A stretch of 64,000 nucleotides of DNA from Acidobacteriota bacterium (GTDB lineage Bacteria; Acidobacteriota; Terriglobia; Acidiferrales; UBA7541), in the NCBI GenBank assembly GCA_003225315.1, contig QHZD01000020.1, positions 124,001 through 188,000 on the forward strand. Direction: 5' to 3'. A program made the position numbers and the translations under genes. A model generated the notes under the pieces. That model saw only the letters and a program-made list of their open reading frames with translations. It was not told where the DNA came from and ran no database searches. The first letter of the stretch is position 1; each line of letters starts with the position of its first letter. Positions 1-58,254 of this stretch are shown in pieces.

Positions 1-315
1 TTCGGCGCGCAGGTGGTCGCCGTGGACGCGGCCGGCGGAGCGGTTGTGGGAGCGACAATTGGCGGGTGGAGCTGCGCCGCTCCGGGTCCCGCGCAATTTG
101 ACGGCACGTACGAAATCGATGGTCTGGCTGTGGGCCACAGCTACACGGTATATGCGGAAGCGCTGAATGGAGCGGTAGATCCTTCGCAGTTCGACAACGC
201 GATTGTCTCGCTATGCCGCAACGTCGTCCCCGACGCGGGCTGGCCGCCGTTGCAAGGTTGCGTTGTCCCTGCAGTGGACGTCAGCTTCACGGCTCGGACG
301 CGGCCCGGACCTTGA
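1..315 (+). CDS. C-terminal fragment of an exported-type protein with a carboxypeptidase-regulatory-like domain
   Basis: The reading frame is open at the left edge and ends with TGA at 313-315, so only the last 104 residues are visible. The stretch DGTYEIDGL followed by YTVYAEAL is typical of carboxypeptidase-regulatory-like beta-sandwich domains, which often sit at the C-terminus of secreted proteins in Acidobacteriota, including matrixin-like proteases. Three Cys residues (in WSCAAP, SLCRN and QGCVV) would suit an extracellular location. The catalytic part, if any, lies outside the window. The gene converges on the minus-strand KASIII-like gene 38 bases away. Confidence 0.6.
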   Translation, partial: FGAQVVAVDAAGGAVVGATIGGWSCAAPGPAQFDGTYEIDGLAVGHSYTVYAEALNGAVDPSQFDNAIVSLCRNVVPDAGWPPLQGCVVPAVDVSFTARTRPGP

Positions 316-53974: not shown

Positions 53975-54840
53975 GCGTCCTCGTCAACGAAAAAACTCGC
54001 CTCATCGTCCAGGGTTTCACCGGCCGCGAAGGTACTTTTCACGCGCAACAAATGATCGAATACGGCACCAACGTTGTCGGCGGCGTCACGCCCGGCAAAG
54101 GTGGCACCAAGCATCTTGAACGCCCGGTCTTCAACACTGTCGCCGAGGCCGCCAAAGCCACTGGCGCAAACGCCTCGGTCATTTTCGTTCCGCCTCCGTA
54201 CGCCGCCGATGCCATCCTCGAGGCCGACGACGCCAAAATTCCCCTCGTCGTCTGCATCACCGAAGGCATTCCCGCCCTTGACATGGTGCGTGTCGCCTCC
54301 GTCGTCGATTTCAAGAAAACGCGTCTCATCGGTCCGAACTGCCCGGGCATCATCTCCCCTGGGAAATGCAAAATCGGCATCATGCCCGGCCGCATCCACA
54401 AGCAGGGCAACGTCGGCGTCGTCAGCCGCAGCGGCACGCTCACCTACGAAGCCGTCCATCAATTGACGCAACTTGGCATCGGCCAATCCACCTGCATCGG
54501 CATCGGTGGCGATCCCATCATCGGCACCACGTTTCTCGACGCCATCCAGTTTTTCAACGACGATCCGGACACGCACGCCATTATTTTGATCGGCGAAATC
54601 GGCGGCAACGCCGAAGAGCGCGCCGCCGAATGGATCAAGGCCAACGTGAAGAAGCCGGTCGTCGGCTTCATCGCCGGACAGACCGCTCCGCCGGGACGCC
54701 GCATGGGCCATGCTGGCGCGATCATCAGCGGCGGCCAGGGCACTGCCAAGGACAAGTACGCCGCGATGGCCGCAGCCGGTATCCGCACCGTCGAAACTCC
54801 CGCGGATCTCGGCTCGACTCTTGCCGCGACATTGAAATGA
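53971..54840 (+). CDS. sucD: succinyl-CoA synthetase alpha subunit
   Basis: 289 residues. The CoA-binding Rossmann part ([20 protein letters not shown]) is followed by the ligase domain; the phosphohistidine lies in [19 protein letters not shown]. It partners with SucC, with which it overlaps by four bases. A palindromic repeat begins six bases after its stop. Confidence 0.96.
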
Positions 54841-54845
54841 AGAAT

Positions 54846-54912
54846 CTGTAGCTCGGGCCTTCAGGCCCGAGGCTTTTTCCTGATCGCGTACCGCCGGGCT
54901 TCAGCCCGGCAT
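54846..54912 (+). repeat. palindromic repeat pair between sucD and ndk
   Basis: First unit (54846-54878): CTGTAGCTCGGGCCTTCAGG, then CCCGAGGCTTTTT. It matches the hscB/hscA element at 12297-12325 apart from compensating A/G and T/C changes that keep the stem. Second unit (54891-54908): CCGGGC-TTCA-GCCCGG-like palindrome. The T tract after the first unit could give some termination. Confidence 0.75.
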
Positions 54913-54943
54913 CTTGGATTTGATACTTCGGAGGAATTTCTTC

Positions 54944-55363
54944 GTGGCAATCGAACGCACATTCGCAATCATCAAGCCCGACGCCGTCAGTCGCGGCCAG
55001 CAAGGCGAGATCCTCGCCCGCATTCATAAGGCCGGTTTTAGAATCGTTGCCATTAAATCCATGCGCCTCACAAAAGAAGAAGCCGGCGGCTTCTACGCCG
55101 TCCACAAAGCGCGCCCCTTCTTCGGCGAGCTTACGGACTTCATGAGTTCCGGCAAAATCTTCGCCATGGTTCTCGAAGCCGAAGGCGCCATTCTCAAGTG
55201 GCGCGACACCATGGGCGCCACCGATCCGAAAAAAGCTGCCCCCGGCACGATTCGCCACGACCTTGGCACTAGCATTGGCAACAATTGCACTCACGGCTCC
55301 GACGCACCGGAAACCGCCGCCTTCGAAATCGGTTATTTCTTCTCCGGCCTCGAACTTATTTAG
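54944..55363 (+). CDS. ndk: nucleoside diphosphate kinase
   Basis: 139 residues from a GTG at 54944 with GGAGGAA seven bases upstream, giving the normal start [18 protein letters not shown]. The phosphoacceptor His is in [14 protein letters not shown]. It balances nucleoside triphosphate pools by transferring the gamma phosphate. It follows sucCD, a frequent neighbour because succinyl-CoA synthetase can produce GTP. Confidence 0.96.
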
Positions 55364-55463
55364 CCGCGAGCGATTGGACGTAAGTAGGGTTACGATACAT
55401 CGTGCCCCTCTTTCTTTCGCTCCCTCATTACTTCTTTACTTCATTTCTTCTAGAATCTCTCTC

Positions 55464-55697
55464 GTGGACCCCCTCCGCGAACTTGGCCGCATGCTCCTCG
55501 TTCTCGGCGTCTTCCTGGTCATTCTCGGCGCTCTCTTTTACTTCGGCGGCAAGCTCCCGTTGCGCCTCGGCCGCCTGCCTGGCGACATTGTCCACCGCGG
55601 CGAGCACACTACGTTCTATTTCCCCATCGTTACCTGTCTCGTCCTCAGCGCCGCTTTCTCTCTGCTCCTTTGGCTCTTTGGACATCTCCGCAAGTAA
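55464..55697 (+). CDS. DUF2905 family small membrane protein
   Basis: 77 residues from a GTG at 55464. MLLVLGVFLVILGALFYF and a second hydrophobic segment (YFPIVTCLVLSAAFSLLLWL) flank the conserved loop RLGRLPGDIVHRGEHTTFYF, the DUF2905 signature (GRLPGDI). It is a two-pass inner-membrane protein of unknown function. It lies 100 bases after ndk. Confidence 0.85.
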   Translation: MDPLRELGRMLLVLGVFLVILGALFYFGGKLPLRLGRLPGDIVHRGEHTTFYFPIVTCLVLSAAFSLLLWLFGHLRK

Positions 55698-55725
55698 CTC
55701 CGTCTTTTCCTTAACTTCCTTTACC

Positions 55726-56190
55726 TCATTTTTCTATCTTGAACTCCGCCCGTATGAACGCCTTGATCCCTTCTTCTCCCGTCAATCGTAAACACGCCAG
55801 TTTCCCTTCGCGTTCCAAATCAATGTGAAAATCAAAAAACGGGCAGCACTTGCTCTCCGCCACCACCCACTCCGCCAATTCCGCAAGTGTCGCGTCACCT
55901 GGACTGAATTGAAACTCATACCCTTTTTCCGTCTCCACGATCTCTTTCCTTGCCGCCATCAATTTCTCGCTCAATTGCTTGTGCCGCGCCCGCTCTTCGG
56001 GCGTCAGCGCTTTGATGTTGCAATAGAATTTGCTTTGCACCGTGGCCACCTGCCTCTCGGGTTTTACGACGAACGTCGAGCCTTGCGCCGCAAGCCCCAT
56101 CGCTCCGCCGCTTCCCATCAAAAGCGCCAGCGTCACGCCTGCCAAGCTCTTCTTACTCATTCTCACAAACTGCTCTTTCCCGTTCTTCAT
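55726..56190 (-). CDS. exported CCPFF-motif protein, probable MerR target
   Basis: 154 residues from the ATG at 56190, which has GGAGGAAA upstream. It has a signal peptide (MSKKSLAGVTLALLMGSGGAMGLAAQ within the first 36 residues). The mature part has FYCNIKALTPEERARHKQ, a helical region, AESKCCPFFDFHIDLEREG and GIKAFIRAEF. The Cys-Cys-Pro-Phe-Phe motif and single upstream Cys could bind a metal. Similar small proteins accompany mercury or heavy-metal regulators. A MerR-type promoter with a 19-base spacer drives it, and merR is divergent. Confidence 0.78.
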   Translation of the reverse strand: MKNGKEQFVRMSKKSLAGVTLALLMGSGGAMGLAAQGSTFVVKPERQVATVQSKFYCNIKALTPEERARHKQLSEKLMAARKEIVETEKGYEFQFSPGDATLAELAEWVVAESKCCPFFDFHIDLEREGKLACLRLTGEEGIKAFIRAEFKIEK

Positions 56191-56230
56191 GGCTTTCCTC
56201 CAATTAGGATTTGCCACGTCCCATCCCCGG

Positions 56231-56261
56231 ATGCTAAAACTTAAAGTCAGCTTTAAGTCAA
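56231..56261 (-). promoter_or_regulatory. MerR-type promoter and operator
   Basis: Minus strand: -35 TTGACT (56256-56261) and -10 TAGCAT (56231-56236) with a 19-base spacer, the overlong spacing typical of MerR-activated promoters. Within it is a perfect palindrome ACTTAAAG-TCAG-CTTTAAGT (56239-56258). It would drive the CCPFF-motif protein gene. Confidence 0.82.
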
Positions 56262-56298
56262 GCCCCATTTTCAAAGAGAAAGATCAGGAAGGACCAAT

Positions 56299-56718
56299 AT
56301 GAAAATCGGCCAACTCGCTCGCAGCGCCGGCCTCAACGCCTCCGCCATCCGCTACTACGAAAAACGCGGCCTGCTCGCCGCGCCCCAGCGCACGGGCGGC
56401 CAGCGCCGTTACGCAAGCGATGCCCTTTCGCGCGTGCTCTTGATCCGCTTCGCCACCGACATGGGTTTTACCCTCAGCGAAATCAAGCTTTTCCTCAGCG
56501 GCCTCCGCGACAATACTCCCGTCGGCCCGCGTTGGAAAAAGCTCGCCACTCGCAAGCTCATCGAAGTCGAGCAAAACATCGCGCGCTCCCTCAAGCTCAA
56601 ATCCCTTCTCCAGGGCCTCCTCCACTGCCACTGCCCCTCACTCCAGTTCTGCGTCAATTGCCTCCGCCTCAGCCCCAAACTGTGTCGCTTTGACAGCATC
56701 CGGCTGAAGCGCCGTTAA
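56299..56718 (+). CDS. MerR-family transcriptional regulator
   Basis: 139 residues. The winged-helix start MKIGQLARSAGLNASAIRYY, EKRGLL and GGQRRYASDAL identify MerR, followed by a dimerisation helix and a Cys-rich end: HCHCPSLQFCVNCL plus a later KLC. Such Cys could bind a metal ion or a [2Fe-2S] cluster as in SoxR, but the spacing (CxC-x5-CxxC) does not fit SoxR exactly. GGAAGGACC precedes the ATG. It most likely binds the palindrome at 56239-56258 and activates the divergent gene. Confidence 0.92.
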   Translation: MKIGQLARSAGLNASAIRYYEKRGLLAAPQRTGGQRRYASDALSRVLLIRFATDMGFTLSEIKLFLSGLRDNTPVGPRWKKLATRKLIEVEQNIARSLKLKSLLQGLLHCHCPSLQFCVNCLRLSPKLCRFDSIRLKRR

Positions 56719-56773
56719 TCCACAAAAGGAGCGAAGTTGCAAAGGCGCAAGCGCAACCTGCAAGCTGATAAGC

Positions 56774-57673
56774 ATGCCGGAACTGCCGGATATCGCCGCG
56801 TACATTACTGCGCTCGAACCACGCATCGTCGCGCAGCCGCTCATTCGAGTACGGCTGGCAAGCCCCTTTTTGCTTCGAACCGCACAACCGCCCATCAAGA
56901 GTGTGGAGGGCCGCGTCGTGCGCGAACTGCGGCGAGTCGGCAAGCGCATCGCGATTGGAGTAGAAGGCAATCTTTGGCTGGTGCTGCACTTGATGATTGC
57001 AGGCCGGTTGCATTGGCGGCTGCCGGGGGCAAAGCTGGCGGGCCGCAACAGTCTGGCAGCCTTCGATTTTCCCAACGGTTCTCTCGTTCTGACCGAAGCC
57101 GGCACAAAGCACCGCGCATCGTTACATGTGCTCACTGGCGAGGAAGGCTTGCGTTCCATTGACCCGGGAGGAATCGACATCTTTGCGAGCGATCTCAGCT
57201 CGTTTCGCGACGCACTTACGTTCGAAAACCGCACACTCAAGAGAGCTCTCACCGATCCGCGCGTGGTCAGCGGGATCGGCAACGCGTATTCGGATGAAAT
57301 CCTGCACGCGGCGCAACTGTCGCCCATCGCCCTCACGCGCAAGCTGGAAGCGCACGAGTGGGAAAGGCTGTTCGCTGCGGCGCGCAATACACTCAAAGTC
57401 TGGATAGACCGGCTGCGCACGGAAGCCGAAGCTGGCTTTCCCGAAAAGGTGACCGCGTTTCGCAAGGAAATGGCGGTTCACGGCCGCTATGGACAGCCTT
57501 GTCCGAAGTGTGGAGCGAAGATCCAGCGCATTCGTTACGCGGACAACGAAACGAACTACTGTGCGCGGTGCCAAACGGGTGGAAAAGTTCTCGCGGACCG
57601 CGCTTTGTCGCGGCTGTTGGGATCGGACTGGCCGCGCACGCTCGAGGAACTCGAAGTCCTCAAACGCCGCTAA
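56774..57673 (+). CDS. formamidopyrimidine-DNA glycosylase family (Fpg/Nei)
   Basis: 299 residues. MPELPDIAAYITAL gives the catalytic N-terminal Pro and Glu after Met removal. The H2TH region VSGIGNAYSDEILHAAQLSP and a C-terminal zinc finger with Cys in QPCPKCGAK and NYCARCQTGG are present. It excises oxidised bases and cuts the abasic site. PELPD with an Ile rather than Val/Glu at the next positions puts it outside strict MutM; Nei-like specificity is possible. Confidence 0.9.
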   Translation: MPELPDIAAYITALEPRIVAQPLIRVRLASPFLLRTAQPPIKSVEGRVVRELRRVGKRIAIGVEGNLWLVLHLMIAGRLHWRLPGAKLAGRNSLAAFDFPNGSLVLTEAGTKHRASLHVLTGEEGLRSIDPGGIDIFASDLSSFRDALTFENRTLKRALTDPRVVSGIGNAYSDEILHAAQLSPIALTRKLEAHEWERLFAAARNTLKVWIDRLRTEAEAGFPEKVTAFRKEMAVHGRYGQPCPKCGAKIQRIRYADNETNYCARCQTGGKVLADRALSRLLGSDWPRTLEELEVLKRR

Positions 57674-57927
57674 TTCGTGTGCCTTTCTGAATGTCATGGA
57701 TCGCGCCGTCCGCTCGCCGTCATGGACATGTTCATGGCGGCCTCTACCCTCATCCTCGTTACAAGCGGCCGCTCCTTCCGTTCCCTCCGTCCCCGCCTTC
57801 GTCTGGCTGATGGGTCAAGCTCCCTCTAATTGAGTTCGGGCTTCATCCCAAGCTTCTCTTGCGAAAACTTTGCGTCTAGAATCGCTAGATGGCTCAACTT
57901 TTCAACCAGAGAGAACAAGGACTTACG

Positions 57928-58254
57928 ATGGACGGTTTATGGACGACCGAGTTCGGCAGCAGCACAGGAATATTCGGCGGTGGCGTGGCAGTTTTCCGGG
58001 ATGGGAAAATATTGGGCGGCGACGCGACCTACTACTACATCGGAGAATACACCCTGACAGGGAACGCCTTCAAAGCCACGCTAAGGATTTCTCCCTTTAT
58101 CGAAGGCGCGGAAAGTGTATTCAAGACCGTGGGCAGAGACCTTACGTTAGATTTGGAGGGGTCCCTGACAAGTAAGGACCAAGCGATTGCTCAGGGGCAT
58201 CCCAGAGGGACGCCAGGTCTCAATTTTGGAGCAAAGCTAACCAGGCGCGCGTAA
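57928..58254 (+). CDS. GrlR-like small protein upstream of a RelA/SpoT-synthetase gene
   Basis: 108 residues from the ATG at 57928, preceded by AAGGA; an earlier start at 57889 is possible. MDGLWTTEFGSSTGIFGGGV, VAVFRDGKILGGDATYYYIGEY and a later FKATLRISPF match the beta-barrel pattern of GrlR-like proteins. GrlR is a regulator of virulence genes in enteropathogenic E. coli, but homologues are widespread and mostly uncharacterised. It ends 15 bases before the RelA/SpoT gene, so the two form an operon in which this protein could neutralise or regulate the synthetase. Confidence 0.75.
   Translation: MDGLWTTEFGSSTGIFGGGVAVFRDGKILGGDATYYYIGEYTLTGNAFKATLRISPFIEGAESVFKTVGRDLTLDLEGSLTSKDQAIAQGHPRGTPGLNFGAKLTRRA

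Follow-up and report, generated by a model that had tools for sequence, protein, structure and literature searches.

A divergent MerR and CCxFF gene pair in Acidobacteriota: a new protein family that is probably a catcher of toxic metals

Organization of the locus

A MerR-family regulator (P0002) and a small protein with a Cys-Cys-Pro-Phe-Phe motif (P0001) are encoded by a divergent gene pair in the stretch of 64,000 nucleotides of Acidobacteriota DNA that was analysed here (the window). The ORF coordinates were checked and the features of the locus are the following.

55726..56190, minus strand: CCPFF protein gene (P0001, 154 aa); signal-like N-terminal segment, then a domain of ~100 aa with C57, E112, C115 and C116
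56231..56236, minus strand: -10 box TAGCAT
56239..56258, no strand assigned: predicted MerR-type operator, inverted repeat ACTTAAAG-(4)-CTTTAAGT, between and overlapping the promoter boxes
56256..56261, minus strand: -35 box TTGACT, with a 19-nt spacer to the -10 box
56299..56718, plus strand: MerR-family regulator gene (P0002, 139 aa), with C110-x-C112-x5-C118

The CCPFF reading frame starts with an ATG at 56190, directly preceded by GGAGG, and ends with a stop codon at 55726-55728. The source genome is a draft of 4.98 Mb in 57 contigs that is 98% complete. Its nearest named relatives, as judged by the CCPFF protein, are Acidobacteria gp2 and Candidatus Acidiferrum MAGs. The pair is bracketed in the window by an Fpg-type glycosylase gene on one side and, on the other, by a DUF2905 gene, ndk and a gene identified from its sequence as sucD. 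These neighbours are housekeeping genes and no mer or ars gene adjoins the pair in the window. Both sucD and ndk are within reach of the pair in 11 of the 17 loci that code close homologues (L028-L044; L numbers designate loci throughout). An Rfam search of window positions 54000-58000 gave no match.

The promoter and its operator

The two ORFs and a MerR-type promoter with a 19-nt spacer had been read from the sequence in an earlier note, and both are borne out. The promoter is on the minus strand, directed toward the CCPFF gene, and is composed of TTGACT (56261-56256), the 19-nt spacer and TAGCAT (56236-56231). The inverted repeat ACTTAAAG/CTTTAAGT (56239-56258) has 8-bp arms that are 100% complementary, a 4-bp centre, and an overlap of three bases with the -35 box. 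The description of the repeat as a perfect palindrome holds for the arms only; the centre, TCAG, is non-palindromic. A generic sigma-70 scan found 0 sites, but its spacers were restricted to 16-18 nt.

The dyad, allowing up to 3 mismatches, has a chance expectation of 0.01 per window. A TTGAC-box, a 19-nt spacer and a TA-box combined with a perfect 8-4-8 dyad occur once in the window and in none of 100 dinucleotide shuffles, while perfect 8-4-8 dyads by themselves are not rare (6 in the window versus a shuffle mean of 1.7). The full 31-nt site, with up to 3 mismatches, has a single occurrence in the draft genome. A regulon search of this genome with up to 2-3 mismatches detected no second operator; in the looser form of this search the reversed control pattern matched twice.

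The motif TTG[AC]C[TC]-N(15..23)-TAnnnT combined with a dyad was scanned in 772 kb of DNA, mostly loci around CCxFF homologues plus the window. Of the 43 box pairs at spacing 19, 24 include a dyad, or 20 once four duplicate loci are discounted. Every one of the 24 falls between a MerR gene and a CCxFF gene or its operon. They come from Acidobacteriota, from Sinorhizobium and from plasmids of Bacillota (Paenibacillus, Peribacillus, Cytobacillus). No dyad accompanies the boxes at spacings 15-18, 22 and 23. Spacing 20 has four (two upstream of the MerR-CCxFF fusions of Rhodococcus, two next to mer genes) and spacing 21 has one, which is a shifted reading of the L050 site. Among the close loci L028-L044, 15 of 17 keep both boxes, the 19-nt spacer and the left half-site; L034 retains boxes and spacer but its half-site is altered, and in L037 the dyad is present with boxes that do not match. 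Dyads in 19-20-nt spacers serve activation through promoter distortion in MerR biology, as described in the accessible portions of PMC1526738 and PMC4411124.

The MerR-family regulator

P0002 is a MerR-family regulator. Its Pfam scores exceed the cut-offs (in brackets) of MerR_1 with 63.9 bits (21.6), MerR with 47.5 (28.2) and MerR-DNA-bind with 41.5 (25.4). The dyad inside the 19-nt promoter spacer agrees with the operator organization that the accessible part of PMC1526738 gives for the family, a dyad within a 19- or 20-bp promoter spacer. The NCBIfam models rank in the order SoxR, MerR, CueR and ZntR, all below cut-off: P0002 scores 84.2 bits for SoxR TIGR01950 (cut-off 116.9) and 77.8 bits for the mercury-specific MerR TIGR02051 (cut-off 150.85). 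The single PADLOC match of P0002, to mad1, covers only its first 45 residues, which are the HTH.

C110, C112 and C118 of P0002 align with C122, C124 and C130, three of SoxR's four [2Fe-2S] cysteines, and Leu107 occupies the first Cys position. This position is Cys in none of 30 aligned regulators (34 minus 4 truncated or doubtful). C110 is Cys in 30 of them, C112 in 28 and C118 in 27, with all three present in 25. Three thiolates lacking the fourth would suggest that the regulator senses a soft metal and not, by way of an Fe-S cluster, the redox state.

The CCxFF protein family

The CCxFF family is defined here by C57, E112 and C115-C116 within a domain of ~100 aa, as found in P0001. These residues are the columns that never vary when 25 diverse members are aligned. 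Among 61 extracted domains, all 59 that have a letter at position 57 carry Cys there, and E112 is Glu in 59 of the 61; the extraction was anchored on CC and the 61/61 score of C115/C116 is partly by construction. The earlier note had missed the third invariant cysteine C57, the invariant E112 and the three conserved cysteines of the regulator. By inspection, the amino terminus of P0001 is basic, then hydrophobic. It is probably a signal peptide, the protein being probably exported. Some relatives have no evident signal segment and therefore export is not a family trait.

P0001 has nothing above cut-off in Pfam and no match in NCBIfam or PADLOC. DUF4439 (E 0.11, 13.5 bits versus a cut-off of 28.8) was not taken. 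At E 0.01 the 25 diverse members gave no match to Pfam and NCBIfam, the HMA/MerP and MerB models included. A relation to MerB, prompted by a CC...FF motif in MerB, is not supported, given the lack of a Pfam/NCBIfam match in the 25 members and an hhalign probability of 1.2% against 3 MerB sequences, a comparison of low power. A search for PDB relatives of P0001 returned chance-level rows only.

The AlphaFold model of the domain, made from 21 mostly close sequences, has a mean pLDDT of 94 and a pTM of 0.84. Along the chain it predicts a helix, two strands, a second helix, two more strands and a third helix (alpha-bb-alpha-bb-alpha), with C115-C116 at the end of the second helix. Foldseek comparison of two AlphaFold models to the PDB gave no match with E up to 0.001. 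The best VIA-align row is AhrC/ArgR (Z 7.3-7.5, rmsd 3.1, 80 aligned), a score that is middling by the tool's own scale, and no fold claim is made from it. No HMA chain is among the VIA-align and Foldseek matches listed, which does not speak against an HMA (ferredoxin-like) fold, and the model has no clear PDB match.

No paper was recognised as describing the CCxFF family in a partial search of the open-access literature, and the accessible part of PMC8261052 does not mention it. CCxFF is a real, conserved and uncharacterised new family inside a known type of circuit.

Distribution and coupling to MerR

CCxFF relatives are found in 25 of 396 sampled genomes of the phylum and in 24 of 89 genomes of the family, the own genome being included in both counts. 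The genome collection holds 21 loci, and there are 17 distinct plasmid records. An adjoining divergent MerR gene accompanies 17/17 close homologues (L028-L044), two with truncated MerR frames. The MerR frame next to CCxFF appears truncated or shifted in the MAGs of L037 (4642-4980) and L040 (4367-4693), either by assembly error or by decay. CCxFF is not obligately coupled to MerR, since no MerR is seen within about 1.5 kb at 15 of the 26 Acidobacteriota loci from whole genomes; two of the 15, L016 and L017, are truncated by the ends of their contigs. Near the haloarchaeal copies there are helix-turn-helix regulators of other kinds, and Adhaeribacter copies have no MerR in the region shown. The CCxFF protein is the constant element while MerR is a frequent, not universal, partner.

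The contig of L044 is labelled as a Betaproteobacteria MAG; it codes a 49%-identical CCxFF protein and an Acidobacteriota-like regulator, and is possibly mis-binned. The annotation of CCxFF in the plasmid records examined is 'hypothetical protein' or 'Zn-dependent oxidoreductase', or it is hidden within MerR-regulator labels.

Fusions and gene neighbourhoods on plasmids

Three plasmids, two from Rhodococcus and one from Streptomyces, encode MerR and CCxFF as a single chain, the MerR part being Pfam-supported in two of the three. The annotation of these genes as MerR or heavy-metal-responsive regulators leaves the C-terminal CCxFF domain unmentioned (L078 4497-5288, L079 4509-5288, L080 4518-5300). 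A gene for a small Cys-Cys membrane protein follows the fusion directly in R. pseudokoreensis and Streptomyces, and all three plasmids have a bile-acid-symporter-like gene downstream. In a Sinorhizobium meliloti plasmid (L085 3737-4327) a small Cys-Cys membrane segment is itself fused to the CCxFF domain, followed by genes for a thioredoxin, CcdA, a bile-acid-symporter-like protein and a GDCCVxC protein. Paenibacillus and Peribacillus have a similar Cys-Cys membrane protein gene between MerR and CCxFF. By eye, the unannotated gap between the two genes in Cytobacillus (L051 5653-5970) resembles such a gene, possibly degraded.

Four separate membrane proteins compared with MerT, MerTP and MerC showed weak or no resemblance (best E 0.0015, all below cut-off), and 'MerT/MerF-like' is used for them as a lead. 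The two symporter-like proteins that were tested both belong to the SBF family and among the NCBIfam models score highest, though below the cut-off, for ACR3. The SBF-type gene of Peribacillus, which bears the label 'arsenic resistance protein', is assigned to SBF by Pfam. Same-strand thioredoxin-fold genes adjoin CCxFF in L055, L062 and L085 (by Pfam) and in L056 (by eye, from a WCAPC motif). In L055 (4214-6767), from a relative of the same class, MerR is divergent from a series of genes in which three for thioredoxin-fold proteins surround CCxFF.

In 12 of the 13 plasmid regions examined, one or more of merA, merB, ars, ACR3 and SBF-type genes lie in the flanks of 4-6 kb, Paenibacillus being the exception; merA or merB is found in 4/13 and an SBF-type gene in 9/13. 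Offset control regions of the same plasmids have none of these genes (0/13); they hold one cation P-type ATPase with ArsR, one lone ArsR-type regulator and one RND efflux set, the record of which states no substrate. These counts are of plasmid neighbours only, with gene classes picked after the loci were seen, slightly different flank and control lengths, and two related pairs of plasmids (two from Rhodococcus, two from Adhaeribacter). The homologues of Streptomyces, Sinorhizobium, Haloarcula and Halorussus are weak single matches (E 3e-4 to 5e-4) united by the C..E..CC pattern. In Halorussus merB overlaps the start of the CCxFF gene and in Haloarcula a merB-type gene is nearby. A gene of organomercurial-lyase type lies close to the CCxFF gene labelled 'Zn-dependent oxidoreductase' in the haloarchaeal plasmids L083 (2603-4306) and L086 (3438-4312).

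The statement in the earlier note that no transporter or reductase is present is correct locally; at other loci the company of the family also includes a small Cys-Cys membrane protein, a transporter like ACR3 or bile-acid symporters, thioredoxins, merA or merB. In the own genome the best match to MerA has 376 bits (cut-off 454), from an ORF without the C-terminal Cys pair, and was rejected. Searches for MerB and MerT gave no match in the own genome, nor in any control genome. ACR3 is absent from the own genome by a search that was positive in 7 of 14 control genomes.

Proposed function

The locus is somewhat more likely than not a self-contained soft-metal stress module, for Hg(II)/organomercurials or for As/Sb(III). 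This reading draws on the gene layout, the promoter architecture with its recurrence in other phyla, the invariant cysteines, the fusions and the mer/ars linkage, all of which are observed. The MerR-type dimer would occupy the dyad in the over-long 19-nt spacer. Binding of a soft metal by the C-x-C-x5-C thiolates of the regulator would realign the promoter and switch on CCxFF as the single target. The exported CCxFF protein would then accumulate and capture the ion via the thiols of Cys57 and of the vicinal Cys115-Cys116 pair, together with Glu112, for sequestration outside the cytoplasm or for handing it on. It might work like the periplasmic mercury binder MerP, without matching the MerP family models. 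For the CCxFF module we infer export, induction and metal binding, as well as the identity of the metal: mercury or organomercury is favoured by the merA/merB linkage and the Cys-Cys membrane partners, arsenic or antimony by the ars and ACR3-like linkage.

Several observations count against a metal module. The pair has no mer or ars neighbour in the window, SoxR is the best model for the regulator, and the L055/L056 operators are SoxR-box-like. Moreover, the genome has no MerA over cut-off and no ACR3, and the CCxFF model has no fold match for metal binding. Some relatives have neither MerR nearby nor an evident signal segment, or lack one of the two, and several of the plasmid homologues behind the linkage argument are the weak single matches named above. 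A switch related to SoxR, responding to redox or thiol stress, is unlikely. Its regulator would sense oxidants or redox-cyclers, and CCxFF would be an exported thiol protein that periplasmic thioredoxins keep reduced. In its favour are the rank of the SoxR model (84 bits, cut-off 117), the alignment of C110, C112 and C118 with three of SoxR's four cysteines, the thioredoxin-fold genes that adjoin CCxFF in L055, L062, L085 and L056, and the L056 site TTCAAGTTAACTTGAAG, which is similar to the SoxR box that PMC4411124 gives for E. coli. The first cluster position, never Cys in the 30 aligned regulators, and the clustering of plasmid relatives with mer, ars or ACR3-like genes in 12 of 13 regions argue against it.

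It is also improbable, more so than the redox switch, that CCxFF is an enzyme and not a binder, such as a thiol-dependent reductase or an organometal lyase-like protein with Cys57, Cys115-116 and Glu112 as active site. Three cysteines with one acidic residue are reminiscent of MerB chemistry, merB or a merB-type gene is overlapping or nearby in Halorussus and Haloarcula, and thioredoxin partners could recycle the protein. Yet merB is a separate gene in both haloarchaeal loci, 0/25 members match MerB or another Pfam/NCBIfam model, and the profile comparison with three MerB sequences has the low probability, and low power, given above. The single MerR-CCxFF polypeptides of two Rhodococcus plasmids and one Streptomyces plasmid could mean that the domain is mainly a co-sensor of MerR, as ligand donor or co-regulator. 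This is the least probable alternative; the signal-like segment of the window protein would put it outside the cytoplasm with no contact with MerR.

The soft-metal module remains the preferred reading. The minimal MerR-controlled metal-type response that the earlier note cautiously suggested is partly supported and gains strength here; it fits the conserved promoter, the one genomic site, the thiols on both proteins, the mer/ars clusters and the MerR fusions. The Acidobacteriota pair looks like the minimal form of a broader module. The plasmid-borne relatives of CCxFF are mostly beside mercury or arsenic resistance genes, so that it probably catches toxic metals as a protein of a new kind. More tentatively, it may be a previously undescribed soft-metal carrier, unrelated to HMA/MerP and common to bacteria and haloarchaea. 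It would replace MerP beside MerT/MerF-like membrane proteins and ACR3-like exporters in mercury/organomercury detoxification, be part of MerR in Actinobacteria, and stand alone as a regulator-plus-scavenger in Acidobacteriota.

Across several bacterial phyla and haloarchaea, the promoter, fusions and neighbours of CCxFF would assign it a role in the handling of mercury or arsenic. If so, a thiol protein of mer/ars cassettes has gone unnoticed, and the pair in Acidobacteriota forms a natural metal-sensor circuit of very small size, with a single operator and a single target.

Comparison with known systems

SoxR is the best model for the regulator, shares three of four C-terminal cysteines with it by alignment, and has two box-like operators in the set (L055/L056); a 19-bp spacer is also given for SoxR-regulated mfsA in the accessible part of PMC4411124. 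In contrast to SoxR, P0002 is below the model cut-off, the first cluster Cys is missing in 30/30 regulators, and CCxFF is not among the known targets of SoxR.

The separate membrane proteins match the MerTP and MerT-CopZ fusion models (NF033556, NF045683) weakly, below cut-off, and the Sinorhizobium fusion has no NCBIfam match. This fusion resembles MerTP and MerT-CopZ in joining a Cys-Cys membrane segment to a soluble domain, which is CCxFF in Sinorhizobium instead of the HMA domain of the two models.

Unlike MerP and other HMA proteins, CCxFF has no Pfam/NCBIfam match and has the predicted order alpha-bb-alpha-bb-alpha. No merA, merB or transporter gene adjoins the pair in the window, and the MerR operator consensus TCCGTAC-4-GTACGGA, as stated in the accessible part of PMC1526738, differs from the window operator. 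The locus shares with the MerR/MerP arrangement of the mer operon a MerR-type regulator, a dyad in a 19-nt spacer and an apparently exported Cys-pair protein, and some CCxFF relatives adjoin merA or merB and small Cys-Cys membrane proteins.
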